Of a DNA stretch of 64,000 nt, positions 1,905-53,967 are shown one piece after another. The number at the start of each line of letters is the position of its first letter. The first letter of the stretch is position 1. This DNA is from Zygnema cylindricum (lineage: Eukaryota; Streptophyta; Zygnematophyceae; Zygnematales; Zygnemataceae). The stretch is from assembly GCA_037447655.1 (NCBI GenBank), contig JBBHKE010000775.1, positions 599,692 to 663,691 on the forward strand, given 5' to 3'. The notes beneath the pieces were generated by a model, which saw nothing but the letters and a program-made list of their open reading frames with translations, was not told the origin of the DNA and ran no database searches. The translations under genes were made by a program, and so were the position numbers.

Positions 1905-3544
1905 CTCCACCATAAGAGTTTGGATGGAGGGAAGATGGGCTCCATGGTGATCTAAATTTCCTCCAAGAAGAAGTATTCGAGGATTTTTGTAACTTGAGGA
2001 CATGTGACGATCCGCGACATTTTTACGAAACACAAGTCCTTGAATAACGTAACTAAGAGGAAAAACAAAAGAAACAAAAAAAAAAACAAGAAAAAATCAA
2101 TTTCCTTCCAAACTCCCTAAGAATAAAAACCTTCAAGAAGGCGATTATAACATCCCGGGCCGGAATTAGTGTAGAAGGAGTAGAAGCTTTTTGATTTATT
2201 TGTACAAAATAAAATAGTGTATGTTGAAGTGACAAACACAAAACAGTGCGACCACCGATAAATAGAGTGTGAAAGATAATTATCAATAAAGAAAGTCAAC
2301 TTTACAGCGGAAAAAAGGGGAGAGGGAGAGCAGAAGAGAGAATGAGAAAGAGAGAGAGAGAGAGAAGAAAAGTGACAAATTCCGCATTGAAAAAGCATCA
2401 AGTTCTAACTATCTCCTTCTTTCCATATACTACAAACACATTTTCTAACAATGCATTTAAAAAAATCAATTCCTACCACAACGTAAATTAGTAATTTAAA
2501 CCTGCATATAAATGTCCTAAATGGTGATTTGCTCCCGGAATACTTCTAGCCTCAGAAATAAGAAACAAAAAAAACACTAGAATCTCTTCGTTCTCCATCT
2601 CCCAATCTCCTAAAGAACTCTCACTCTCCTCTCTCTCTCCTCTTTCCTATGTCTCTCCCCTCTCACTCTCCCTCCCTCTCCTCTCTCGACTCTCTCTCTT
2701 CTCTCTCCTCTCTCCCACTCTTCTCTCTCTCCTCTCTCTCCTCTCTCTTTTCCCTCTCCTCTCCCTTCTACCCCCCCTCTCTGACTCTCTCTACTATCTC
2801 TCTCCTCCCTCATCTCTCCTCTCTCTCTATTCTCTCTCTCCTCTCTCCTCTCTCTCTTCCTCTCTTTCATCTCTATCCTCTCTCTCTCCTCTCCCTCTCC
2901 TCTCTCCTCGCTCTCTCCTCTCTTTCTCCTATCTCTCACCTTTCCCACGGCGTCCCCCCTTCCACACACTTCACTTTCACATAATCCTCAATGTGCAGTG
3001 AAATATCCCCTCTCTCCGAAGGCATCAGTCGCAATGATTGCATTGACTCCAAAGCCTCCAAAGTCAGCGCCACAATAAGACAAATCCAATTATCCAATTC
3101 CGTACAGCCTCCCTCTTCCTCTCCCTCCCTTTCAACCTCTTGATATCCCCCTCGTCTCTCTCCTCGATCTCCTCTATCTCCGCCCTCTCCTCCCTCTCCT
3201 CCCTCTCCTCTCTCTCCTTTCTCTTCTCTTTCTCCTCTATCCCACTCGTCAATCACTCCCTCTTTCACCAAAATTTGAGCCACAAAATTTGCAAAATTCT
3301 CGCCAAGAATTGCTTCTGCGATATGTTTTTCCATTTCCCTTCCTCTTTGGAACCTTCTGTCTTCTTTTGATCCTAAATTTTTGTCTTCTTGCGGAATTAT
3401 CCACAGCGATTCGTCTTCTAGCGAAGCAAATCGAGGAGAATACGACTTTTCTAGCAATTCTGACTGGCTTGGAAGATTCCAAGCATCTTCCTTATTCAAT
3501 TTTGGACTTTTTTCTTCCATTAAACAAGTCTTATATTCTGTCAT
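1905..3544 (-). CDS. FAB1: FAB1/PIKfyve-type 1-phosphatidylinositol-3-phosphate 5-kinase, two internal exons
   Basis: FAB1 makes PI(3,5)P2 from PI3P on late endosomes and vacuoles. Two exons are seen: 3544-2940 (605 nt) and 2052-1905 (148 nt). The first ends at a donor AAAG|GTGAGA and the second begins after TTAG; joining them restores a Ser codon and the block ESYVIQGLVFRKN. The motifs DYVKVKC and then YKNPRILLLGG are the entry to the CCT/TCP1-like domain of plant FAB1 proteins. The second exon ends GAG|GTAAGC, phase 0. The kinase domain and any FYVE domain are not in view. Residues about 105-145 are a Glu/Gly/Arg-rich insert coded by a GAG/GGA microsatellite and absent from relatives I know. 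The ATG at 3544 follows an in-frame stop, so it may be a true start (as in FAB1 forms lacking FYVE) or an artefact of an unseen upstream exon. Confidence 0.75.
2584..2939. repeat. (CT)n/(TCTCC)n low-complexity tract in the FAB1 intron
   Basis: About 350 bp of almost pure CT on the plus strand (GA on the gene strand) begins right at the FAB1 donor site. It produces long spurious ORFs of Ser/Leu or Arg/Glu repeats on the two strands; these are not genes. Confidence 0.9.
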
Positions 3545-4279
3545 TTGAACCGATTAAAGTTTAATTCTGAAACCGGTCACCGCAACCTCTTAAACTAAAA
3601 TTTACATTTAAAAATTTACATTTACTGGAAATGAATTTCGAGTTGAATTATTTGTTTGCAAAAAGAAGAAGGATCGTACTTTCGTTTGTTGACAAACATT
3701 TTCTTGAAAGGAAAAAGGAAACAGAAAGTACAGAAAAAGTACAAAAGAAGTACGGAAGTCATCATCACCTAAAAAATGAAAGCAAGTGTCTGGAAAGGAA
3801 AAGGACTAGATGTAAGAGTCTGGAAAGATAAAATTGATGAGATTACATTAAGAAACGGAAGAAATTGAGTCATTTTTCCATGATTTTAGGATTTCAAATA
3901 AGGAAATTGCGCTGTGAATCCTTGTTTTTTAATGAAAAATAAACTTTACAAAGGTATAATTAAAACGGAACCAGGAGCAAAAACCTAATTTAGATTCAGG
4001 CGCAGTTTTAGGGTTAAGATTTGAGATCGAATTCTGAAAATTAGGTCAAACTGCAACTTAGTATTTCGTTTCGTTTCCTATTCATTTTCTTTTCACTTTC
4101 TTTTCATTTTCTTTTCATTTTCTTTTCATTTTCTTTTCAATTTACTAATTTAGTATTCACATTTGAGACGAATTTAGCAATCTAGAGTTGAACGTTCGGA
4201 AATTGACTGTGAAGTACGGAACTTAGTTTATGGTGATGTTAAGCTGACGTACATTCACATTTGTCTATGAGACACGGTT
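3545..4279. other. Non-coding stretch with an 11-bp tandem repeat
   Basis: No gene is recognised. At about 4081-4141 there is a short tandem array of an 11-bp unit (CATTTTCTTTT, about five copies). Confidence 0.6.
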
Positions 4280-8436: not shown

Positions 8437-8446
8437 NNNNNNNNNN
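8437..8446. other. Assembly gap (10 N)
   Basis: Ten N bases of unknown true length. Both sides read ACGTAG. Confidence 1.
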
Positions 8447-14983: not shown

Positions 14984-15070
14984 GAGAAAGAGAGCGGAGA
15001 AAGAGCGAGAGAGCGAGAGAGAGAGAGGGAGGGAGGGTGGGTGAGAGGGAGGGAGGGAGTGAGAAAAACT
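13889..15070. other. Gene-free stretch ending in a GT/GA microsatellite
   Basis: No gene is recognised; a 60-codon ORF at 14257-14439 shows no motif. From about 14912 to 15062 a (GT)n then (GA)n tract lies just downstream of the PC-esterase gene B stop codon. Confidence 0.6.
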
Positions 15071-18000
15071 TTAAACCAAATGCTTAAGCACGTTATAAAG
15101 CAATTGTACCCATGTATCTTCCGGCCCCGGTTCACAATAATGAAGGCAATCAGGAGCCCCCGCATCATTGCTACCTCTATGTCCATCGGCTCTCAAACTC
15201 GTCGAATTATCGACATCAAAATAAATGCCTCCAAATTCCTCGACTATTTTTCTCGCAACTTCATTTTGAGCCGGAAAATCGGCCCAATGATACGGCTTCG
15301 GGAGTGAGTCGGGATCTTGTCGTTTGGCGGTTGGGTGATGGTAGTCCATACAATTGACGTGACCTAGTAAAATAAACGCATAATTGAATGGATTAATAAA
15401 CAAATAAACAAATAAAAGAGATAGAAAGTTTTTTTTTGGAAGATGGACTCCAGTGGAGGAATATCCAATTTGTTAGAATCAAACTAAAAGGCCATGGTTG
15501 GAAAGGAATGCTCAAAAGAAAAATCGGCTCTTACATACAAGAGGGTGAGGGAGAGGAAGAGGCAGGGGCGGAGGGAGAAAGAGGAGACAGACAGACAGGG
15601 AGACAGTGAGACAAGGGGACAGGGAGACATATATATAGAGAGAGATAGAGAAACAGAGTAAACCAAAGACAATTCCCCTCACCTGGCGGTGTATTTCTCC
15701 ATATCACCAGCGTATCCGGATAATTCTCCCTTATGTACTCCATCGTATTCCTCACCCCAATCTCGAACACCGGATCGTCGCAAAAATGCGCCCCTCGATT
15801 AATCACCAAAATCGACGGCTTCCATCTTTCCATCTGCGTTATCCATGGAGCTTCTCCGTCTAACGGAACCTTAGTCAACGATGCCGCCCTGTTAAAACAA
15901 AAGCGCACCTCGACCGGTTTTTCAAACATCTCGTGACAGAAGGCGGTGCCTCGGCACGTGAAGCGACGCATGGCGATGTCGTACTCTTTTCCGCCGTCCG
16001 GCAGGATGTCCACAGGAGGGTACTTTTCTGGAGGGTAAAAAGTGGCAGAATGAAAGGGTTATGAAAGGGTTTGTGAAGGTTTTTTTGAAAGGGTTTTTGA
16101 CGGGTTTTTGGAGGTTTTTTAAAAGTAAGGAGAGAAGGAAAAAGTCTTTTATGGTTTTTTGAGGGTTTTAACAACCTTTAAAGAAAAGGTATTTGAAACT
16201 ATCGAACACAATCTGGAGTTACTATCCACGGTAGAGGGCATCATAGGTAAAATTAGAGCAAATAGAACTTGCAATTACTGGAAGGATAAGAAAATTGTAC
16301 GAGAAACTATGATCTTTCTTCGATCTCATGGAGTTGGTACAACAATAGCAACTAGAATATTTTAAACCTATGGGGAAGAGGCAATTGCCATAGTATCAAA
16401 AAACCCAACTAGTATCAATTAGCTAAAGATATTAGAGGTATTGGATTTATTTCAGCTGAAAAAAAAAAAAAAAAGCCAGTAACTTAGGTATTACAAAAGA
16501 TTCTCTTATCCGGGCTAGAGCTGGTTTGTCTCACGTATTATTAGAAGAAACTTCCAACAGGCATTGCGCCCTATCCTTACAGATCTTAATAGAAAACTCA
16601 GAAATTACTTGGCATAAATCCAAGTTTAGTAGAGCTCGCTATTATTAAAAAACAAATCGAGTTAAAAACTAATATTTGTGATCTGATAGAAGACAAGTCA
16701 TGCATATTTTCAGCTAGTTATCACTTCTATGAAAAAAAATAGCAAAGATACTTTTATCTATTGATAAAGAAGATGTTCCGTGGGGTCATAATAACTCGCA
16801 AGAGTTAATTCCCGAAATAGAACAAAAGCTGAGTATCCTTTTAACAGGTAATAAAAAAGAAGATATTATCACAGCTCTATCAAAGAGACTAATAGTTATT
16901 ACCGGTGGTCCCAGTAGCGGTAAAACAACTTTAGTAAAAGCTTTGCTTAAAGTATTAAAACTTAACAAGCTAAACATTTAACTTTGTGCTCCAACTGGTA
17001 GAGCCGCTGAACTTCGAAGTGAAAACAACTGGTCTGGAATCGATCATTATACATAGATTGTTAGAAATTAACTCTTTATAAAGAGGTTTTAAATCTAATG
17101 AGGAAGGTTTCATATATATGTGATTATTTAACAGTTGACGAAAGTTCAATGATTGATGCCACTTTATCCTTTGATTTAACAAAAGCTCTACCTGATCATA
17201 TATCATTTCGGTCTTCTATTAGTTGGTGATGTGGACCAACTACCTTCCTTCCTTCCTTCCTTCTATTGGCGGGACAAGCATTAAAGGACATTATTAATTC
17301 CAATATAATTACAACTGTTAGGCTAAATCAGATTTTCCGCCAATCGGCAACAAGCGCTATAATCACTAATGCCCATAAGGTTAATAAAGGCATATTACCT
17401 GATTTAAACTCCCATAAAGATAATAGTGATTTTTAATTGAAGCAAAGCCTGGTGATGATATTATCAATAAGATAATTACTATCACATGCGTTAGAATACC
17501 TAAGAAGTTTAATCTAAATCCCAATAGATGATATTCAATTATTGCGCCCCATGCCACAGAGGTGGTACTGGAGCAAGCTCACTTAATATTGAATTACCAA
17601 AAGCATTAAATCCAAATTATGAAAAAGGGATTACAAAATTCGGACAAACTTTTGCGGTTGGTGACAAGGTAATGCAAACAGAAATTAACTACAACAAGGA
17701 TACTTATAACGGAGATGTTAGTGTAAAGAGTGCTACTGATCAGGAAGAACAAGAGGTCACAATTGATTTTTATGGAAACAAAAGTAGTGTATGACTATGA
17801 TAATTTAGATCACAATACATAAATCACTATATTATGCAACCGCTATACATAATTCACAAGGCTCTGAACATCCGGCTATTATAGTACCTCTTAGTATTCA
17901 AAGCTATATGATGCTAAGGCGTAACTTAATCTATACTGCTATTACTCGTGGTAAAAAACTTGTAGTTATTATTGGAGAGAAAATGGCGTTTTGCTATGGC

Positions 18001-21000
18001 GGTAAAAGATGGAAAAAGCTCTAATAGATATTCCAAGTTAAAATAATTACAATTTCAATATTGATTGATTCGTCTCCCGCAAAAGCAATAACAGAAGACT
18101 ATAACCTAATCGACTTACAAGCGATGGACGAGGATAGTATAGATTACCAAAAACACCTGAGCTTTCTGCTCTACACCAGGAAGTACATTCATTAGCGTAA
18201 TACTATTGCCATGATTAAGGAAGTAATGAGTTGGTGCAAGAGAGCTTTTAGTATCGATAAACAGCAAGATTATATTCGCACCAAACTAATTTTATGTTAT
18301 ACTTATGGTAATATTTCATAAGAAAGAAAAAGCAGATACTGAGGCAGCTTATTGTAAATAATTTAAATTTAAATAATTTACCTAAGGATGAGGCAGATAA
18401 TATCATGAGATTCATATACCGTAGAAGGCTTTGAAAAGGTTATTTTGCAAGGTGTTGAAAAAGGTATTGAAAAAAAATGAAAAGCTGAATTAATAGAAAT
18501 GAAGCTCAACAAAGGTAATACTGTTGTTGTGGTTGCTAAAATCACAGGCTTATCTATTGCAGACATTCAATAGTAATTTGACTATTAAGAAATATCATGA
18601 AATACAATATTACAGCTTTACAAGAGAACATTTAGGCTATTACGATGAAGGCTTAAAAATTTACATGCTCTCCAGAAACATGACTATTGTGCTTAGTATT
18701 TTAGCAATAGTAGCCTATATAGTCGGTAGTAACAACCAGTTAAAAATGATACTATTCACTACCCCACTTGCATATGCCATAGTGTTTGCACTGCTGATTT
18801 ATATCTTCTTTTTTAGTCGTCATTTAATGAGTATAGATAAACAGCAGGCAATGTTACACCTTCACACATTTGCTTCTCTTACTGGATTATCACTTGGCGC
18901 TATATTTCTTACTTATACAACCGCTAGTAAAGTTATAACATTTTTTATTACCACCTCTACTTTCGGTGCAATGAGTCGGTGATTATATTACATCTTACAT
19001 AGGAATAGTTTTTAATCGATATTTAGCAAAGATTGCATCAAATAGGCAAAAGCCAGATGGATTGTTGGTTATTAATCCACATCTCAATTGCCCGATAAAC
19101 TTTATTCGTTAAACTTAAAAAGCATTACAGGGAATTGGCTCAAAAATAAAAGATCGACTCATAAGAAACAGTACATCCTCTATAAACCAGCTATGCTGTC
19201 TTGATCAAGCAAAGTTAAACGCTACCTGGGGGAGCGTCTGGGGAGAAAAAGTATCGTATTTAATAATACTATTCTAATATTCAATAATATTTAATTAGAG
19301 GAGCTGATTCACCGTTAGAAGGAACCAGAAAAAGTACACTCGGGCGCATTAAAACTAGTAGAATTTTAGGACCGGAACCGCAGTAGATACAACATGTCAG
19401 AAAAAAATTGATAAACCTTAGTGCAAAAAGTTGCAAATAGACTTATTAGAGAAAAAGCATTATACACAACAAGGATATTACTTACCGTCGATTTTAAACA
19501 AGGAAAATCAGCTAAAGAAAATAGTAAAATAGAACTATCGAATGATAATAGCGCAATTCTCAGACAGGTTCTTTAAACCTTGGGAAGAAATATTAAAAAA
19601 CCTTGATATTCTCAAAACGAAGATCAGAAAAAAATAAAGGTTAGGTTTTATAATCTGCAAGACGAATCAAACCAGCTATCGTTTGAAGATTTTAGGAGAC
19701 AAAAAAAACCAGAAACTATCAGGATTATGTGATAGTATTAATAGAAAAAACGAGTATAAAAACGGTTTTCCATTGGCATTACCACCAAAGCATATGCAAC
19801 TGGACAGATAGAAGAATTTGGTCATAAAAATACAATTAATAAAAAATTAATTAATACTAGGAATTATTACAAATTTCTTTAAAAATAATATTAAAATATT
19901 CCTGAAACCAAGAATTAAAAAAAATCAAGTTCCCTATTTTAAGTAAACTCGGCGAAGGGTGGGAGAGCGAGAAGGAGGGAAGAGAGGGAGGGGAGGAAGG
20001 GAGAGAGCCGCGAGCTGAAGGTTGAAGAAAATGTGTCTCTCGAAGGAGGAGGTCATGGAGTCACCGACTAATAGAATGCTCCTCCCAGGACCCATGGCCC
20101 TGTCGAGAAAACATAATAGAATAAAAGTATTAAAAAAACGACAGGTAAAAGTACTCTAAAAGTAAAGTATTACTTTTACTTAACAATACGTAACAAAATA
20201 ACAACAAAAATTATTCACAAACAAAAAAAAGTTACCTCACCGAGAAAAAGGTTGAAAAGATTCAATTTTACGTAAAAAATGGGGACGAGTCAGAAATACA
20301 AACATAAAAATTCGACAAATTTTACGAATATTGCAAATTCAAACAGGAAACGTATTTGAAAATAAGTTAACAAACCTAACTGTAACCTCTCCCTAATTTC
20401 TCTGTCTCCCTCTCTCTCGCTTTCTCTCTCTCTCCCTCCCCCCTCCTTCCCCTCTCTCAGTCTCCTCTCCCATTTCATTACCTCCCTTGCACTCTTTGCC
20501 TCTCCCTTTCTCATCCTTGCTCGATCTCCCAATCTGACTGTCCCTCCCCTTCACTACCTTCTTCCCCCATATCTCCTCTCCCTTCCCTCCCTCCTTCCCT
20601 CTCTCTTCCCTCCCTCCCTCCCCCCTCCCTTCCTCCCTCTGCCCCCCCAAATTTTGGCCCAAGTTTCCCAGTCACCTACTCACAAAATCCCTTCCTTGAA
20701 AAAGTTTCGAGAGGACATTTTGGCGTTTTCCATTCGTACTTCAAATCTTCTCTCACACTCCAGTTCCCTCCTCTCTCTACTACCTCATCTGCTTGAGGCC
20801 CATATATTCCCCCATACCATAATTGGCGTTGATCACAACGGGAAATATAACTAGGAAGAGCCCATGGAACCACTAACCACGGTAAATATCTCGGTTTTGA
20901 ATTGTATACCCATTTCCCTTTTGTCATAAAACAATCGAATTTTCGACGAAGGTTTTCGGCCGAGGTTTTCGTCTTTATCTTCGATCCCGGAATCGGAGAT

Positions 21001-21098: not shown

Positions 21099-22511
21099 GA
21101 TCTCACTCGATTTCTATCCTCCAACGGTTGGAAAAACGCTCCGTTTTTCGTCTCCATTTTTTCGAAATCGACTTTCGGAAGAGAAACTAAAATAGTGTTG
21201 AAAAAAAGATCGACCCAAGAATCAATAATTCCCGGTTGACAGAGATTAATACAACTTTTCGGTCGGTTAGTAAAATTTAACATTTCTTTTGGTCGACTTT
21301 TTACCGTCACGTCGACGTCGAGAAACAAACCCCCTTCCTCGACAAGTTTTTTTGCGATCGCATTTTGTCGTTCGAAAATTTTATCGGGAAATTCAAAATT
21401 TGGGGGAGGCTGAGAAAAGGAATTTCGAGTCGGGTCGGGACAAAATGTCGCGGCTGCCCACAAAGAAAAAAAAAAAGAAACACTTTTGGTTGAGTGTAGC
21501 GTAGAAAAAAAAAGGTTGGTTAGAGGAAAAGAAGTGAAATTAATAATAAAAAGGGTTGATTGAAAAAAAGGGGGGGGGGAGAGGAGGAAATATGAGCTAA
21601 GAAGTGGAAAAGAGAAAAGAAGTATGAGGGATAAAAAGCATCAGTTGATGTATTTCAAGTTTTTTTTTTTGGTTGTAATTGTTTTTATTGTTGCCCTTTC
21701 TTTCTTGTTTTATTTGTCTTGTAGTCAAGAAAAAGGGACGAAAAAAAAGAGAAAAAAGGAGAATGTAAAAAAAAAAAAAAAAAAATGCCCATTTGGGTAC
21801 ACTTCTAAACAACAAAAAAAATAAGAAAAATAAAATAAAATTAGATTTACAACCCGGGATAAAAATATCACGGAAAAAAAAACCCGAAACTTCCCTGCTT
21901 TAAACAGATTCCTTTAAAAGAACCTTAATAAAACCTCATACCTTTCGAGACCCGCCAAAAATCCTCCAAATCTTCCAAAAAATCCCACTAAAAATCCCTC
22001 AAAAAGCCCGCAAAAACCCACATCCACCCCATATCTACCCCAACCCCATTTAAACCCCACTTAAAGCCCGTTTGAATCCCACTTAAACCCCAGGCAAACC
22101 CCATTTAAACCTCCAACAACCGAAAAAAACCGTAAAACCGAAAAAAGAAAACCACCTCCACTTACTCGTGGGCATATTCCTATAAATAAAGAGTGTCTCC
22201 CGGTACCGCCCCGTCACCTAATCAGCCGTCACCGTCACGTCCATCTCAAACTCGTCACCCGTCACGCTTTGAATGAGACAAAATAGCCACGCTCGGTCGC
22301 CAAAACGACATTGCCGAAATCCACGGCGTGTGTTTGAAATCCACAGTATTTCTGGTTAAAGACAAATTACCGCTACGGACGAAACGTACTGCCACAGAGT
22401 GACCGTCCAAAATGTCATGACAGTAGCGGTAACCGGAGCAAAGTTTTCGGTCTCGTCCTTTGTCGTATTCCGGGCAGCCGTTGGGAAAAAGGTTGACGGG
22501 GAAATAGTTTT

Positions 22512-22612
22512 CTGGAGGGAGGGAGGGAGGGAGGGAGGGAGGGAGGGAGGGAGGGAGGGAGGGAGGGAGGGAGGGAGGGGGGAGGGGGGGAGGGAGGTGG
22601 GGAGGAGGAGGG
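22512..22612. repeat. (GGGA)n microsatellite at the intron 2 acceptor of PC-esterase A
   Basis: About 100 bp of nearly pure GGGA/GGGGA on the plus strand forms the pyrimidine tract (CCCT)n directly before the AG acceptor of exon 3. Confidence 0.9.
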
Positions 22613-22699
22613 GGTCTTTGTTTTTTCAGCTTTGATGTTAAAATTATTATTGTTATTATTATTAAATTTATTTTTATTTCTTTTCGTTTTTTTTCCTCA

Positions 22700-22742
22700 T
22701 TCTCGAAGCTCCAGCCAACATCTTATACAAAATCTTGGCTTT
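22700..22742 (-). repeat. Partial duplicate of the 3' end of exon 2 (gene A)
   Basis: On the minus strand this reads TTGTATAAGATGTTGGC and continues TGGAGCTTCGA, matching the last part of exon 2 at 22848-22885. The donor position reads GAATGAGG instead of GTGAGTGG, so it is not a usable exon end. Confidence 0.65.
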
Positions 22743-23189
22743 TTTTTTTCAGCTTTCATATTGTGATTGAAGTTTATTACAAACATGGATATAATTTTTA
22801 TTTTTATTTTTATTATTAACATTATTATCTTTTATTTTTCCACTCACTCGAAGCTCCGGCCAACATTTTATAAAAAAATCGGCGTTCAAATCCCCAAGAA
22901 AGTTCGTCTCCCACAATCAAAATACTCGCATTAATTCCAAAGTTTCCAAACATGACTCTGGAGAAAAAAAAAAGATAAAAGATAATAAATAAAAAAAAAA
23001 TCAATAGGTGAAGAGGAGAGAGAGAAAAAACCCTATTTTTTTGTAATGGGAAAAAAAAACGAATTTCAATTTGAATTACTAAAATATACATATAATAACA
23101 ATAATAATAATAATAATTCCTTACTTGCAAAACTTCTCATAACTAAAGTCCTCCCACGGACACCTCTCCATCCTCCACTCCCACTTCGC

Positions 23190-23680
23190 CTCCTCCCTCA
23201 CTCTCCACTCCCTCCCCTCCCTCCCCCCCCCCCCCTCCTCCGCCACTCTGTCCGCCTCCTCTCCCTGCATCTCGCTCCTCTCCTTCCTATCCTGGTCGCA
23301 CTGCGTCTCCCGTCCGTACTCTTGTCGTATCCACGGCAGCTTCCGGGGGCTAGGGTTCAGCGCCCAGCCGCCCCTTTTGCTGAAGCAGAAGAGCGTTCCG
23401 CGGAGCAGTGAGGCGCCGCCAGCTGTACGGGCAGAGGATCCCTGGATTCCCGGAGTAGGTTTGGATGACACGTCAGCAAGGAAGGAGAAGAGGAGGACGA
23501 GGGAGAGGGGAGGGGGGAGAGGAGGGAGAGGTGGAAGGGAGGGAGAGGAGGGGAGGAGGGGGAGCGCGGAGAGGGAGAGGATGGAGTGCGAGAGGAACAT
23601 GTGGGGGAAGGAGGAGGAGCCATGGGTGGAGTGGGAGAAGCGAAGGGAGGGGAGAGAGTAAAGAGGGGAGGGGAGTGAGG
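23190..23680. repeat. CCTCC/GGAGG-rich low-complexity DNA over exon 1 of gene A
   Basis: Strongly biased pyrimidine/purine DNA overlaps the leader and part of exon 1 of PC-esterase A. It explains the Pro/Ser/Leu-rich N-terminus and the several overlapping spurious ORFs. Confidence 0.8.
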
Positions 23681-28169: not shown

Positions 28170-29092
28170 GCCATTCCCACACTCTCCCCCCTCGTCTCTC
28201 TAATCCTCTCCCTCTCCCTCTTGTCTCCCTCGCCCTCCCTCCCCCTTTCCTATCTGCTGCCTCGCTTTAGACCTCGCTGCCGACTCACTCTTCTATTCTC
28301 TCCTCGCTCTCCGAATTCCCCTTCCATGTCTCTCCCTCTCCCTCTCTTCTCCCTCTCCCCTCTCTTTCTATCCTTCTTCTTCTCGCTCTCGAGCCTGGCC
28401 CACGAGCCGGCCCGGGGCGGGGAGGCGTGCACAGCGGGGCGAGGGAAGGTGAGGGTGGACGTGGCGCCTGGCTGAAGAGAGGGACAAATGGATTCAGGAA
28501 GCCGGAACCACACAGCCAGACAACTGACCTCACTTGTCAGATGCTTTCCACCCTCTCTCTCTCTCTCTTCTCTCTCTCTCCTCTCTCTCTCTCTCACCTT
28601 TTTCCTCGCTCCCTTGCCTTCTCCCTCTTTTAAATGTGACAACTGTCACGAATAGTAGGCCTCTGTCCTCTCTCCCTTTCCCTCTCTCCCTTTCCCTCTC
28701 TTCCACTCTCTCTCTCTCCCTTTCCCCCTCTCCCTTTTCCTCTCCCTCTCTTCAGTGCGACAACTGTCAAGTTGTTGAAAACTCTCTCGTTCAGCTCTCT
28801 CTCCCCCTTTCCCTCTCTCGCTTTTCCTTTCCCTCTCTTCAGTTTGACAACTGTCCAGCTGTCCCAAACTTTTTTGTTCTGCTCTCTCGCTCTCTCTCTC
28901 CCTTTCTCTCTCTCCCTTTCCCTCTTCCTCATTCAGTGTGACAACTGTCAAGTTGTCGCAAATTTTCTCGGTCTGCTCTTTCAGTCTCTCCCTTTCCCTC
29001 TTTCCCGTACCCGCTCCCTCTCTTCAATGTGACGACTGTCTCTAATAGGCCTCTGTCCCTCGCTCCCTTTCCTCTCCCTCTCCCTCTCTTCC

Positions 29093-29138
<46 letters not shown>

Positions 29139-29335
29139 CCTTTCCCTCGCTCCCTTGCCTTCTCCCTCCTTTCAATGTGACAACTGTCACGAATAGTAGG
29201 CCTCTGTCCCTCTCTCCCTTTCCCTCTCTTCCACTCTCTCTCTCTCCCTTTCCCCCTCTCCCTTTTCCTCTCCCTCTCTTCAGTGCGACAACTGTCAAGT
29301 TGTTGAAAACTCTCTCGTTCAGCTCTCTCTCTCAT
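28170..29335. repeat. CT-rich satellite with a GTGACAACTGTC core
   Basis: Pyrimidine tracts alternate with a unit of about 40-50 bp carrying G(T/C)GACAACTGTC (near 28637, 28758, 28845, 28937, 29029 with variation, 29176, 29284). The stretch at about 28605-28795 recurs almost unchanged at about 29145-29335, a higher-order period of about 540 bp. It abuts the broken reverse transcriptase. Confidence 0.8.
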
Positions 29336-32300
29336 TTCAAATCTCCCCTTAAGATCGGTTTTCAGTTTATTAATTTTTTCCATTGATTTACTTAAAACAA
29401 GCAAATCATCAACATAAATTGCAATAAATATAAAACCTTCCTCATCTTCGAAAACATAGATTGAGTGATCTGAGCTGATCCGAATATATCCTAGACCGGT
29501 AAGAAACTCATCAAGCTTCTTATTCCACTGTCGAGGCGCCTGTTTCAAACCATAAAGAGATTTAATCAGCCGGCATACCTTACTCTCCTCTCCTTCTTCC
29601 ACAAACCCTTCGGGTTGTCGCATGAAGATCTCCTCTTCCAATTCTCCATGCAAAAAGGTTGTTTTGATGTCCATCTGGTGCACTTCCATGTCTTCCGCCG
29701 CTGCTAAACTGAGAAGTATGCGGACGGAGGGAAATCTGACCACCGGGGCAAAGGTTTCCTCGTAGTCAATTCCTTCCTTTTGTGTAAATCCCTTTGCCAC
29801 TAATCTGGCCTTGTAGCGCTCGATTGTGTTATCTGGGTTCAGTTTTAGTTTGAAAACCCACTTACAACCGATTGGTTTTCGGTTAGGTGGACAATCCACC
29901 AGCTCCCAAGTATCGGCTGCCATAATTGAGGCCATCTCTTCATTAATGGCTGTCTTCCACCGATTTCTTTCTGGACAATTCATCGCCTCTCCATAAGTTT
30001 GAGGTTCATCTTGATGAGATAGTTTAGTTACCTTGTTATTAACCTATTTTTCTTGCAGTCTTTTGCTACTTCTCCTCCCCCCTTCAAAATCTGAGGCCAG
30101 AATAGATGGTTTTCGTGGATTCTTTCGAACAAACTCGGCTTCTCCCCATCCCTTGATTCCGAATCAATTTCCACAACGTCTTCCGCTTCGGGTAGAGTTG
30201 TCACTGTAGTTTTCGCAGTCGAGTCCTTTTTGGTCTGATTTTTACCCGCAAGAATGTCATCTTCTCTAAAACCTGGATAGTTAGGAAGCTCAACGTCATC
30301 CGAATTTTCTGACTCGAATCTGATTTTTACTGACTTTGTATACTTGAAGGGATCCACAGACTTTCCTTCATCTATAACAACTAGATGTTTTACTAAGATT
30401 ATATCTTCCCTTTTTAGATCATAATATATATATCCTTTAACATCCTCATCATATCCTAATAAGTATCCCGATTTTCCTTTAGGATCTAGCTTCCAATTAG
30501 ACCGATCTGTATTTAGACTGGATACTTGACTGCCGAAAACCTTTAAGTGAGATATGTCTGGTTTCCGGCCTGGCCATCTCTCATAAGGTGTTTGATCTTT
30601 TATAGCTGAAGTAAAAACTCTATTTTTGAGATAATTAGCACAGTTCATTACTTCTGCCCAAAATCCTTTTCCTATCTTTTTATCTGACAACATACTTCTA
30701 GCACAATCACTTAGTGTTCTATTTAACCTTTCAGCTACCCCATTCTGTTCCGGATTTTCTGGTACTGTCTTTTGGTGTTGGATCCCATCTTCCCTCAAAA
30801 AATCCTCAAACTGGTTAGAATTATACTCTCCACCATTGTCACTCCTTACTCTCTTGATTAGAGTTTCATGGAGTGTTTCCCTCCATGTTTTATATTGTCT
30901 AAAACAATCCTCAACTTCTGACTTGTTTCTCAAAAAATATACCCGGGAATACCGAGACCAATCATCAGTTATAGTCATCATAAATCTCTTCCCCCCCCGG
31001 TGAGGGCACTCTAGCCGGTCCCCAAATATCTGTGTGTACTAAATCTATAACTTTTTCTCCCTTATAGGTGGTTGTTTTAGGAAAGGGTAATCTGTGTGCT
31101 TTACCTTGAGCACACCCACTACAATCACTTATATCATCACTCTCACTGAACTGAATCCCTTCTACCACTCCCATCTTTTTCATCTCTCTTAACTTATCTA
31201 GATTCACATGCCCAAGCCTCTTATGCCACATCATAATATCATGAACACCAGCATAATAAAGTTTCTTTATTTCATTACTTAAGATCAGCCTAAACATCCC
31301 ATGGCTACCTTTCTCAGCAATGAAATAGACATCCTCCTCAAAACTAGCAGTAAAGACTCCTTCCCTAGTGCTAGTGAAAAAACCCTTATCATCTAATACA
31401 GATGTAGAGATAAGGTTTTTGTTCAGCTCCGGATAAATAATACATCGGAGAATGTTAATATGGATGTCTTTCATTCTACTAACACTTTTAGATCTACTGA
31501 TCCTACAAGAGTAGTGGTGACTATCCTCCCATCTCCGTACTCTATCTCTACGTTGGTAATCTTTCTTATCTTAGTGAACAGGTGTCTATCCTTACACATG
31601 TGCATGGAGGCACTTGAATCTACAATCCAGCGTGCTTCACCTTTCAATCCACCGTAAGCACATTTCTGCCTTCGTGGAATTTCGACCTCATTTTTCGCCT
31701 CCAACTCCTCAATCAAAAGGAGCTCATTGTCCTCGTCTTCGGATTCAGCCTCAAGTACCTGTGTGACAAGGGCCTTTTTCTTTCCTCTCAGGGTACCACC
31801 GGTCTGCCCCTCTTTTAACCAAGCTCGGTTAGCTTAGTGCACTCTGCCATATAGTGCCCCGGTTTCTTACAAAAATGACATAAACCTTTGGGAGCCCTTG
31901 GTTCGAACTCGTCAGCCTGTTTTTTTTGCTCCCTACCCCCATAGTTTAAGACTGGTTTCCGAGAATCCTTTTTCCTCTAGTCAGTCGCTGTTGCCAAAGC
32001 TTGGCCACTCTTTCCTCCCCTTCGGATCTCAATCGTATTCTCTCGAACGAGAATCATCCCTACCATTGAGTTCCATATCCACCTTGAGTCAGGCAAGTCC
32101 TTCACACGGTTGACTATGTTCTCAAACTCATCAGGTAACTTCATTAGTAAACAGTTAACCTTTTCTTTTTCACTACAAACTTTTCCCGCACTCTCTAGCT
32201 CCATGAAGAGTGTAGAAAGCTATTTGCAAAAATCCAACATATTTCCCCCTTTGTATACATACTCCTTAACTTTCAGATCAGCCAACTATTGTTGTTGAAT

Positions 32301-32735
32301 CGTACCACTTCGGTAAATCTCTATGAGAGCCATCCAAAGATCGGATGCCCTCTCTACCTGCAAATGAGGACATGCAAGTCCTTGAGTGGGATGGCGTAGG
32401 ATGAAGTGCTTTGCCGCAATATTGTTGAAGTCCCAGGTTTCAGTATCATTCTCCTCGTTCCTCGGAATAAGTGACATGAATGCTAAACCAGTTGCTATAA
32501 GTGTGGTCGCCTCCTTCTCCTTTCCTTTGTCCACCACCTCTCCTTCCTTTGTTTCCTCCGTTGAAGGTGAATCCTCTTTCCTGGTGAATCTGCTTTCTTT
32601 AAACCCGGGAGGAATTCCAAGACTTGATGGACGCCTCAATCGTCCACTCAATATCCCCCAAAACCTTTTTTCGCATAGAGCTCCTATCATCATATTTCCC
32701 AGTATATGAAGCTAGTTCCATTAAAGATTGGTACA
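29335..32735 (-). pseudogene. Copia gag-pro-int-RT polyprotein, truncated in RT and frameshifted
   Basis: In order along the minus strand: gag beginning FNGTSFIYW, a zinc knuckle CHFCKKPGHYMAEC (31880-31839), protease WIVDSSAS (the usual DSG reads DSS), GAG-pre-integrase with HKRLGH and CSGC, integrase HTDIWGP / SDNGGEY / PENPEQNGVAERLNR (D, D, E present), and RT with KARLVAKGFTQ, LYGLKQAPRQW and the catalytic YVDD. The order protease-integrase-RT defines Ty1/copia. The frame breaks at a G-homopolymer near 31000, at a stop near 30027 and several times in gag. RT ends after LKGRFEM, where satellite DNA begins; RNase H and the 3' LTR are missing. The frame runs on into the satellite, giving a spurious Arg/Glu tail. 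Confidence 0.9.
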
Positions 32736-36305: not shown

Positions 36306-36445
36306 GATTTCTGGTGTACTTTTTCTTTATCATTGTAGTGAGTAGTGAGTGAGTGAGTAGGGTTAGGAAATACATAAAAAAAATGTGTTCATGTGAGTGT
36401 TAGTGAGAATAAGTGATTATTTTGTTTTTTTATCTCTTTTTTCAG

Positions 36446-39565
<3,120 letters not shown>

Positions 39566-45618: not shown

Positions 45619-45970
45619 TTATAATTTCTCTTTTAATCCACATTTTTCTCTACAATACTTTAGCTTGGGAGACGGCACAGGCTTTGTCATCATATCAGCC
45701 ACCATTTCCCCATCACTCCTATACACCAAATTCACAATTTTATTTTGCACTTTTTCCCTCACAAAGCTCAATCTTATATCCATATGTTTACTTTTGAAAT
45801 GGTGTTTTGGATTGGCTGCAATTGCAATTGCAGCCTGATTGTCACAAAACACTTCATGTACTCCCTTCTTCATGTACCCCAATTCTTGCAACAAGGACTT
45901 CACCCACATCAACTCTTTCACAGCAGAACAAGAGGCCATGTACTCAGCCTCCATAGTGGACTGAGCAAAT
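45619..45970 (-). pseudogene. Copia RNase H, C-terminal part
   Basis: Open frame QSTMEAEYMASC ... KELMWVKSLLQELGY ... FCDNQAAIAIA ... HHFKSKHMDIRLSFVREKV ... ADMMTKPVPSPKLKYCREKCGL, ending in a stop. These are the standard Ty1/copia RNase H C-terminal motifs (E in TEAEYMA, D in CDNQAA). The sequence upstream of QSTMEAEY is unrelated, so the element is 5'-truncated at about 45970. With its 3' LTR it is of a different LTR subfamily from the 29-34 kb element. Confidence 0.9.
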
Positions 45971-47470
45971 ATTAGTCATTATCAAAAGGAACCTCAAAAA
46001 TCCAGAAAGTCAAACTGTAAAAAGCAACATAGGCTACCAAATGCTTAAAAAGTTCACCACCAGCACCTGGCATAAACTCCAAAAATAATGTAAAGTATTA
46101 AAACTTATACTTTGTCAAATCATTTTCACAAAATAAAACAGAAACTTGACGTTTAGATGACGATCTAGAATGTACCTCACAAAGATGAGCCATGAAAGTT
46201 TCCAACCACATTAATAAAAAAAAACTTATTCGCAACCTCTGATGACCGGAAAAAAATGGTTTGAGGAACCATCGACATGATTTCTTAGACAACGGGGTCA
46301 TAAAAACACAAGAAAGAAAAGTATAGCAAGAAAAACTGGAACCAAATTATACCACCTTTATTAGTATGGAGTTTCTGAGAAACAGAGTGTTTCAAAAATG
46401 AGACTCCAAACTCAGATTTCTAAAAATCCTCATAAATAAGCTCTAAAGCTGACAGAAATGTTGCTTTTAAACCAGCAGTGGTATGGTTCATATTGCTGGT
46501 AGAAAAAATGCAGTCTCTCTCAGTTCTTACAAAATCTGACCCCATATTATTGTAAAGAAAAATAAATAAAAGGAAGGTCACACAAAAATTTAAACAGTTG
46601 AAGTTACCCATATGAGTATCTAAAAACTTATGCCCTTTTCACTACTATACTTAGAATGCCAACAACTTGCGATTTTTATTAGCAGTAAAGGAAAAAAATA
46701 AAAAACTAGTGTCCAACGTTAAAAAAACCTTTAAGATATCAGCTCAGTGCTATTTGTACATATTAAAACCATTTTTCCATCCCGTGGAAAGAAAACAAGC
46801 TAAACTCGTGTTGGAAAGCACAAAAGTTACGGAATCTTAGGAAATTGTTATTGCAAGAAAAGGATTTTCACTATCTCTCTCTCTCAACTCAGTGTCAGAA
46901 TGCACAAATAGTTACAAAACTCAGGGAAATTTCTGTTTCAAATAAAAAGTGTTTTCTCTCACTCTTTAAGACGAATATTGTTGCAAGAAAAGTATTCTCA
47001 CTCACCCTTTACTGTTGCAAGAAAAATGTTCTCTCACTCCTTAGAGCAAATTTTGTTGCAAAAAAAATGCTCTCTCTCACTAACGCAAATAAGAAAAGTA
47101 TTCTCACTCGCTCTCTATTTAAGAAAAGTATAAGTACGCTGTGACTGGCATTACTGGAGCAGTATTCATAGAAATTATACAGAAAATTGTACAGTTTAGT
47201 TGAAAAGGTATGTTTTTTTGTATGATTATGCTGATTAGTGGCTAGTATGACCAGCAATATCGTACATATAATTGCTTACAAAGAAAATTATAGCTGCAGA
47301 CAAATAAAAAAGTAATCTCACTCACTCTCGAAGGATTGCAACTGGCTCTCCTGATGGGCCAATCAGAGCTACTGCTTTTGAGTTTGCGATTGTCGCTTTT
47401 TGTTCGTCGTGATCGCCAAAACAATCGGAATCGACATGTTGACAAGCGAACCATCTTCACTTCTCATGCA
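45971..47470. other. Gene-free stretch with degenerate short tandem units
   Basis: No gene is recognised. From about 46848 to 47130 there is a degenerate repeat of about 30 bp around 'gttgcaagaaaaatgttctctcactc'. By orientation this may be intron of the ATP sulfurylase gene, but no second exon was found. Confidence 0.55.
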
Positions 47471-52898: not shown

Positions 52899-52970
52899 TG
52901 AACCTGACGTGAATCGAACACGCAACCTTCTGATCTGGAGTCAGACGCGCTACCATTGCGCCACAGATCC
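52899..52970 (-). tRNA. trnW: tRNA-Trp (CCA)
   Basis: A complete 72-nt cloverleaf on the minus strand: acceptor GGATCTG with CAGGTTC and discriminator A; D arm GGCGCAATGGTAGCGC; anticodon arm TCTGACTCCAGATCAGA with anticodon CCA; T arm GCGTGTTCGATTCACG with the B box GTTCGATTC. There is no intron. The sequence is the plant nuclear type. Confidence 0.95.
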
Positions 52971-53957: not shown

Positions 53958-53967
53958 NNNNNNNNNN
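53958..53967. other. Assembly gap (10 N)
   Basis: Ten N bases between a MITE and a (GA)n microsatellite. Confidence 1.

Follow-up and report, generated by a model that had tools for sequence, protein, structure and literature searches.

The window analyzed here, a stretch of 64,000 nucleotides in all, contains approximately 3.8 kb of decayed bacterial DNA, from position 16155 to about 19940, inside an intron of a PC-esterase gene (Table 1). Four gene remnants lie in it, all on the plus strand, in the order RecD2, Rpn nuclease, BI-1 and Y-family DNA polymerase. The preliminary description of the window had recognized these four genes in this order, flanked on both sides by PC-esterase exons of the opposite strand and with no assembly gap nearby. 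Both observations are confirmed: protein or DNA matches for each gene show that all four are of bacterial origin, and the exons were matched on either side, with the only runs of N in the window (8437-8446 and 53958-53967) far off. The GC content is 0.32-0.34 in the four 1-kb bins between 16001 and 20000 and 0.47 and 0.43 in the adjoining bins. The edges, previously placed at 16165 and 19900, can be refined: the left edge lies at about 16155-16165, at residue 108 of RecD2, and the right edge fades from 19846, the last polymerase match, to about 19948.

Table 1. Features of the insert and of the PC-esterase genes around it
Feature	Position	Strand	Remarks
Host PC-esterase exon 3	15077..15361	-	Left of the insert
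Host PC-esterase exon 2	15681..16028	-	Left of the insert
RecD2 remnant	16155..18080	+	Residues 108-725 (C-terminus), followed by about 26 bp of 3' flank
CCTT tandem repeat	17243..17262	+	Within RecD2 remnant; live relatives lack it
Rpn nuclease remnant, C-terminal part	18081..18570	+	Residues 89-248 of pPCS109 MPCS_01936
BI-1 remnant	18590..18977	+	Residues 1-129 of 238
BI-1/polymerase junction	18966..18985	+	About 1.19 kb deleted relative to pPCS201; GCAAT common to both sides
Y-family DNA polymerase remnant	18975..19846	+	Residues 141-415 of 418
A+T-rich tail	19847..19940	+	Probably 3' flank of polymerase gene; exact right edge blurred
Host PC-esterase exon 1b (matched part)	20012..20101	-	Carries GDS motif; not followed by the 5' splice site of the paralogues
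Host PC-esterase exon 1a (matched part)	20682..20873	-	Right of the insert
Tandem PC-esterase paralogue	21191..23339	-	Same exon order; exons 1b and 2 about 350 bp apart; insert absent

The host nuclear gene flanks the insert on both sides within one gap-free stretch of the contig. Exons 1b and 2 are 3983 bp apart here, whereas three paralogues have about 350, 225 and 210 bp at this place, and the intron minus the insert measures about 200 bp, similar to the paralogues. The 5' splice site ACTG|GTTAG, present in two paralogues, is missing from the insert-bearing copy; the location is thus an intron by position only, and this copy may no longer splice normally. Esterases of the sequenced Closterium strains are 32-47% identical to the host PC-esterases, so that these strains are unlikely as the host. 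When an insert-free second haplotype was sought with the left flank (15062-16160), one full match was found, the 52 others being pieces with E values of 2.7e-15 or weaker. The search of the insert for promoters and terminators gave no excess over shuffled sequence.

The joined frame pieces of RecD2 match full-length bacterial RecD2 with 75% identity and 100% query coverage (best E 1.7e-277), and at the DNA level an alignment of 1915 bp with L001, a Rickettsiales MAG contig from Lake Erken, shows 79.7% identity. The Rpn remnant shares 54% identity over 163 residues with MPCS_01936 of plasmid pPCS109 (E 3.7e-45), and its composite matches TIGR01784 with an E value of 1.7e-7 and 31.3 bits, under the curated cut-off of 52.1. 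BI-1 is 73% identical to P0121 (76% query coverage, E 4.9e-44), and the polymerase gives two overlapping matches with MPCS_01692 of pPCS201, 64% over 97 and 39% over 266 residues, pPCS201 being the only one of 18 records in the plasmid collection to exceed 31%. A tree for each fragment had been envisaged earlier; those of RecD2 and BI-1 do group these remnants with symbiont clades, while Rpn and the polymerase are assigned by similarity only. The clade of the window RecD2 (support 97/91) also holds L001 and seven proteins from metagenomes; the RecD2 of Ca. Megaera venefica (P0101) falls in a different one. BI-1 belongs to a clade of 26 rows, including six Ca. Megaira plasmid copies and the Trichorickettsia plasmid copy P0128 (100/99), which is separate from 12 BI-1 genes in eight of the nine Rickettsiales-type genomes searched; its position within the clade is poorly supported.

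The arrangement of the genes points in the same direction as the BI-1 tree. On four of six Megaira plasmids an Rpn-family gene ends 20-27 bp upstream of BI-1, of the window's own Rpn type on pPCS109 and pPCS148 and of other subtypes on pPCS201 and NDG2 plasmid 3; on the other two a methyltransferase adjoins BI-1. The polymerase lies directly downstream of BI-1 on pPCS201 only, where Rpn-family gene, BI-1 and polymerase adjoin in the same order and on the same strand as in the insert. Comparison with these plasmids thus shows that both the Rpn-BI-1 and the BI-1-polymerase neighbourhoods occur on Megaira plasmids. The switch from BI-1 to the polymerase in mid-gene had earlier been taken to mean that the insert was rearranged or assembled from pieces. 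For these three genes that view is not supported, as the switch is best read as a microhomology deletion of about 1.2 kb in a pPCS201-type order, rather than a shuffle. It keeps some force at the join between RecD2 and Rpn.

Codon-position constraint, examined in RecD2 and BI-1, has been lost from both. Changes confined to the window RecD2 number 42/460, 42/547 and 45/213 by codon position, versus 23/441, 8/513 and 40/208 on the live L001 branch; for BI-1 the corresponding figures are 10/100, 13/110 and 10/48 in the window versus 2/92, 2/99 and 11/49 in pPCS201. This loss indicates integrated, neutrally decaying DNA and not a live contaminant. Decayed genes are also present on Megaira plasmids, and therefore some of the insert's decay could predate the transfer.

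A live endosymbiont in the assembly was also considered and set aside. With RF00177 four matches were obtained, which fall at three places, and the three loci scanned (L130-L132, of L130-L133) all match eukaryotic 18S best. This lack of a rickettsial SSU is weak evidence, since the search scored just 5 of its 3189 first-look candidates and organelle SSU did not appear either. The 18S gene carries a group I intron at its 3' end, at what we take to be site S1506. Group I introns at S1506 mark the Zygnematophyceae, and such introns also occur elsewhere. The host, a streptophyte, is thus probably a zygnematophyte; Mesostigma viride, to which pMegNEIS296 had pointed as a host, was set aside on account of this intron.

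That Rickettsiales DNA entered a streptophyte nuclear genome and then decayed, as previously proposed, is supported by the matches, the trees, the loss of codon constraint and the intron lengths of the paralogues. Its plasmid affinity had escaped the preliminary description. The insert is probably a fragment of a Megaira-type Rickettsiaceae plasmid, captured in a nuclear PC-esterase intron of roughly 200 bp in a streptophyte, most likely at a double-strand break. A Megaira-type Rickettsiaceae endosymbiont would have resided in an ancestor of the alga, and a piece of its plasmid would have been joined into the intron, presumably through repair of such a break; the insert, by now functionless, would drift, lose its reading frames and gain simple repeats of the host's kind. 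It is regarded as a fragment and not a whole plasmid because the four remnants fill it and none is a replication or partition gene. Among known plasmids none has the four genes together in this order, and at the DNA level the insert reaches only about 70-73% identity with them, which means that the donor itself has not been sampled.

RecD2 was probably carried on the same donor molecule as the other three genes, yet a plasmid source appears less certain for it than for the other parts. Two or more symbiont molecules, for instance a chromosomal RecD2 and a plasmid with Rpn, BI-1 and polymerase, could have been ligated at insertion, an alternative that we consider unlikely. Two pieces are conceivable at the RecD2-Rpn join because it has no known donor arrangement: the order was not seen in donors, and in L006 it is reversed, with the Rpn gene upstream of RecD2. 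The window also tracks L001 for about 26 bp beyond the RecD2 stop before entering Rpn, and P0008, a RecD2 of the window's clade, sits on a 1.58-Mb contig, so that RecD2 of this clade can be chromosomal. No Megaira RecD2 was found by DNA search of the plasmids with the insert. On the other hand, a plasmid-type PolIII-epsilon precedes RecD2 in L001, its nearest MAG relative, and plasmid p1_M_poly_crypto carries PolIII-epsilon, a decayed RecD2 piece and a polymerase piece in a row; moreover, all four genes of the insert share one strand. Plasmid PolIII-epsilon gave no match in the host's own assembly, in a search that had no positive control.

A misjoin of symbiont or other bacterial DNA into the host contig is improbable. 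The decayed genes of Megaira plasmids would lend it some credit, but the missing codon constraint, the lack of a gap nearby and the paralogue-like remainder of the intron all oppose it, as do, more weakly, the eukaryotic SSU loci. Searches of the assembly likewise found the insert in single copy: RecD2 returned seven pieces of the insert and one marginal match (29%, E 9.9e-4), and BI-1 returned the insert and four matches at 37-40%, taken for host BI-1, leaving a single bacterial-type copy. Mobile elements in general can carry Rpn and RecD-like genes, which would accord with a eukaryotic mobile element or virus bearing bacterial-type genes. This origin is the most improbable of those considered, given the single copy, edges that share only one chance-like 8-mer by way of target-site duplication, and viral-contig scans in which one RecD2 relative (54%) and ten BI-1 relatives (32-47%) fell far under the Rickettsiaceae matches.

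Rickettsial DNA in plant-lineage genomes is already known. The nuclear genome of Volvox carteri holds about 9 kb of it, with pieces of 16S, murB, ddlB and ftsQ (Kawafune et al. 2015, PMC4324946). The likeness lies in DNA of a Rickettsiaceae endosymbiont in a green-alga nucleus, several truncated genes in one stretch and non-phagotrophic cells. The Volvox insert is chromosomal in gene type and was confirmed by PCR in a chlorophyte, its murB and ddlB being described there as free of frameshifts, whereas ours is of plasmid type, is known from the assembly of a streptophyte alone and has many frameshifts in RecD2. A fern, likewise a streptophyte, has Rickettsiales-type DNA in its mitogenome, most of it reduced to pseudogenes, but as many mitochondrial inserts from mostly Holosporales-like donors, in contrast to the nuclear intron and Rickettsiaceae donor here. 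The plasmids of Ca. Megaira/Megaera (pPCS201, pPCS109, pPCS148, NDG2 plasmids 1 and 3, pMegNEIS296 and p1_M_poly_crypto) share with the insert the Rpn-BI-1 and BI-1-polymerase neighbourhoods and, on p1_M_poly_crypto, the PolIII-epsilon and RecD2 pieces, but are symbiont plasmids and not nuclear DNA. What is new is thus the probable plasmid source and, probably, the walled, non-phagotrophic host.

The resemblance to Megaira-type plasmids suggests that the ancestors of the host alga housed such a bacterium; the literature searches listed no report of a Megaira-like endosymbiont in its class. It is a doubtful but conceivable extension that a walled, non-phagotrophic conjugating alga once held a Megaira-like symbiont whose plasmid entered the nucleus perhaps by its own conjugative system, and not through symbiont lysis; tra genes are annotated on p1_M_poly_crypto. 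If the plasmid reading is true, it raises the question of whether DNA can reach a host nucleus through rickettsial conjugation systems. The insert would be a molecular fossil that places Rickettsiaceae within a forebear of a streptophyte alga, one that probably belongs to the class nearest the land plants, and it suggests that plant-lineage nuclei have received bacterial DNA from plasmids as well as from chromosomes.

Four bacterial gene remnants, set out in the table below, lie one after another on the plus strand between window positions ~16155 and ~19940; the preliminary description had read such a row, and both protein and DNA matches bear it out. The RecD2 remnant is matched at the protein level with 75% identity over the entire query (E 1.7e-277), and the contig L001, from a Rickettsiales MAG of Lake Erken, aligns with the RecD2 region over 1915 bp at 79.7% DNA identity. 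Judged from such alignments, the matches of the insert to bacterial genes are far beyond chance. The GC content drops here to 0.32-0.34, and 33.9% is stated for a closed Megaira genome (PMC9098888). The assembly (352,776,454 bases, 2689 contigs) contains just one copy of this insert DNA.

Host exons and bacterial gene remnants at the insertion site (window positions)
Feature	Position or order	Strand	Extent
PC-esterase exon 1a	20873-20682	-	matched part
PC-esterase exon 1b	20101-20012	-	matched part
PC-esterase exon 2	16028-15681	-	
PC-esterase exon 3	15361-15077	-	
RecD2 remnant	first in row	+	residue 108 to end
Rpn nuclease remnant	second in row	+	C-terminal part
BI-1 remnant	third in row	+	residues 1-129 of 238
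Y-family DNA polymerase remnant	fourth in row	+	residues 141-415 of 418

The insert sits in a PC-esterase gene of the minus strand, whose exon coordinates confirm that opposite-strand exons flank it on both sides. Of the 42 database relatives of this gene, 11 carry a readable organism name, and every one of these comes from a streptophyte (Taxus, Riccia, Nymphaea, Calypogeia and, in seven cases, Closterium). Exon order is kept in three paralogues, one in tandem within the window and two elsewhere in the host assembly (L135 and L136), in which exons 1b and 2, measured between their matched parts, are about 350, 210 and 225 bp apart. The corresponding distance in the insert-bearing copy is 3983 bp; once the bacterial sequence is subtracted, about 200 bp remain, and the insert therefore fills an ordinary short intron, which is an intron by position. 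At both L135 and L136 exon 1b ends in ACTG, followed by GTTAG; the insert-bearing copy is without these bases (region 20012-19948), and the next GT after exon 1b, by eye, would alter the reading frame. This host copy may be failing or degenerate.

Elsewhere in the window, long minus-strand frames (29045-32711 and 45622-45975) resemble, by eye, pieces of a copia-type polyprotein, a long plus-strand frame (36413-37703) resembles a MULE/FAR1-type transposase, and a tRNA-Trp gene lies on the minus strand (52899-52970). The best 18S locus of the assembly, L130, carries a group I intron (3298-3676) near the 3' end of the gene, between aacaaggtt and ttccgtagg, at what is presumably site S1506, where such introns are common in Zygnematophyceae. 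Taken with the streptophyte relatives of the esterase, this intron points to a zygnematophyte as the likely host.

In the BI-1 tree, the window copy forms a clade with the six fetched Megaira plasmid copies and a Trichorickettsia plasmid copy (100/99), separate from the 12 BI-1 genes of eight of the nine genomes searched; its position within this clade is not resolved by the tree. An Rpn-family gene ends 27 bp upstream of BI-1 on the Megaira plasmids pPCS109, pPCS148 and NDG2 plasmid 3. On pPCS201 the gene 20 bp upstream of BI-1 bears the annotation chromosome segregation ATPase and shares 87% identity with a protein labelled Rpn on the Megaera plasmid p1_M_poly_crypto (p1). On pMegNEIS296 and NDG2 plasmid 1 BI-1 is adjoined by a methyltransferase. 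Among the plasmids compared, the Rpn type of the window is found only on pPCS109 and pPCS148, the BI-1 proteins of which are identical to each other. The polymerase follows BI-1, with one small gene intervening, on pPCS201 alone. The window tracks BI-1 to GCAATGAG, and from that same GCAAT onward it tracks the polymerase; measured on pPCS201, the switch reads as a deletion of some 1.19 kb. On p1 (NZ_CP104167.1, 3714-26672; L108, L109 and L126), fragments of PolIII-epsilon, RecD2, polymerase, Rpn and BI-1 are present in a decayed state and lack annotation; this symbiont plasmid is losing the same gene neighbourhood as that of the insert.

RecD2 is the least certain of the four genes as to a plasmid source. 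When the insert was searched as DNA against the plasmid collection, no Megaira RecD2 was found; the RecD2 protein of Ca. Megaera venefica falls in a different clade from that of the window, and one RecD2 of the window's clade sits on a 1.58-Mb contig, so that chromosomal copies exist. On the plasmid side, the L001 RecD2 gene matches p1 over 203 bp at 95.6%; p1 carries on one strand a plasmid-type PolIII-epsilon, then RecD2 residues 1-71, then polymerase residues 9-133, and in L001 the RecD2 gene is directly preceded by the C-terminal portion of this PolIII-epsilon. The window tracks L001 for ~26 bp beyond the RecD2 stop, whereupon Rpn begins; a donor with this RecD2-Rpn join was not found among the sequences searched. 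RecD2 from contigs L004 (filed under Flavobacteriaceae) and L005 (filed under Rickettsia typhi) groups inside Rickettsiaceae; misbinning seems to explain the filing of at least L004.

Loss of constraint was assessed in RecD2 from window-only changes at sites where L001 and two further RecD2 contigs, L002 and L004, agree. Over codon positions 1, 2 and 3 these number 42/460, 42/547 and 45/213, against 23/441, 8/513 and 40/208 on the live L001 branch and 32/450, 10/515 and 79/247 for L002. The BI-1 counts of the window are 10/100, 13/110 and 10/48, and second-position counts in four compared plasmid copies are 2/99, 1/98, 0/97 and 5/102. The second-position excess in the window, ~6 to 10 per 100 sites, estimates the putatively neutral change since the end of constraint, without a clock, and some of it could predate the transfer. 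To judge from its sequence, the insert is integrated and dead. Window-only indels listed for RecD2 (16239-18065) comprise 14 insertions, one of which (18065, beyond the stop at the alignment end) is to be excluded, versus 3 deletions; insertions, among them a CCTT repeat and an A-run, predominate in the decay of this remnant.

Most likely, a fragment of a symbiont plasmid would have been captured at a chromosomal break, because the left end of the insert falls mid-gene, no target-site duplication beyond an 8-mer was found at its edges and no transposase ends were seen within it. Symbiont lysis and conjugation are indistinguishable as routes of delivery.

Gene transfer between eustigmatophytes and Rickettsiales is reportedly the subject of a published paper (PMC6092422). 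A light literature search, which leaves absence unproven, found no report of a Rickettsiales symbiont of Zygnema or other Zygnematophyceae among the papers listed; those that turned up for the class apparently deal with amoebae, protoplast feeders and classification. Rickettsial DNA in the nucleus of Volvox carteri (PMC4324946) and degenerate rickettsial inserts in a fern mitogenome (PMC10027690) are already known. A nuclear or organellar rickettsial insert is of a known kind; what is new here is the probable plasmid source, together with the host lineage.
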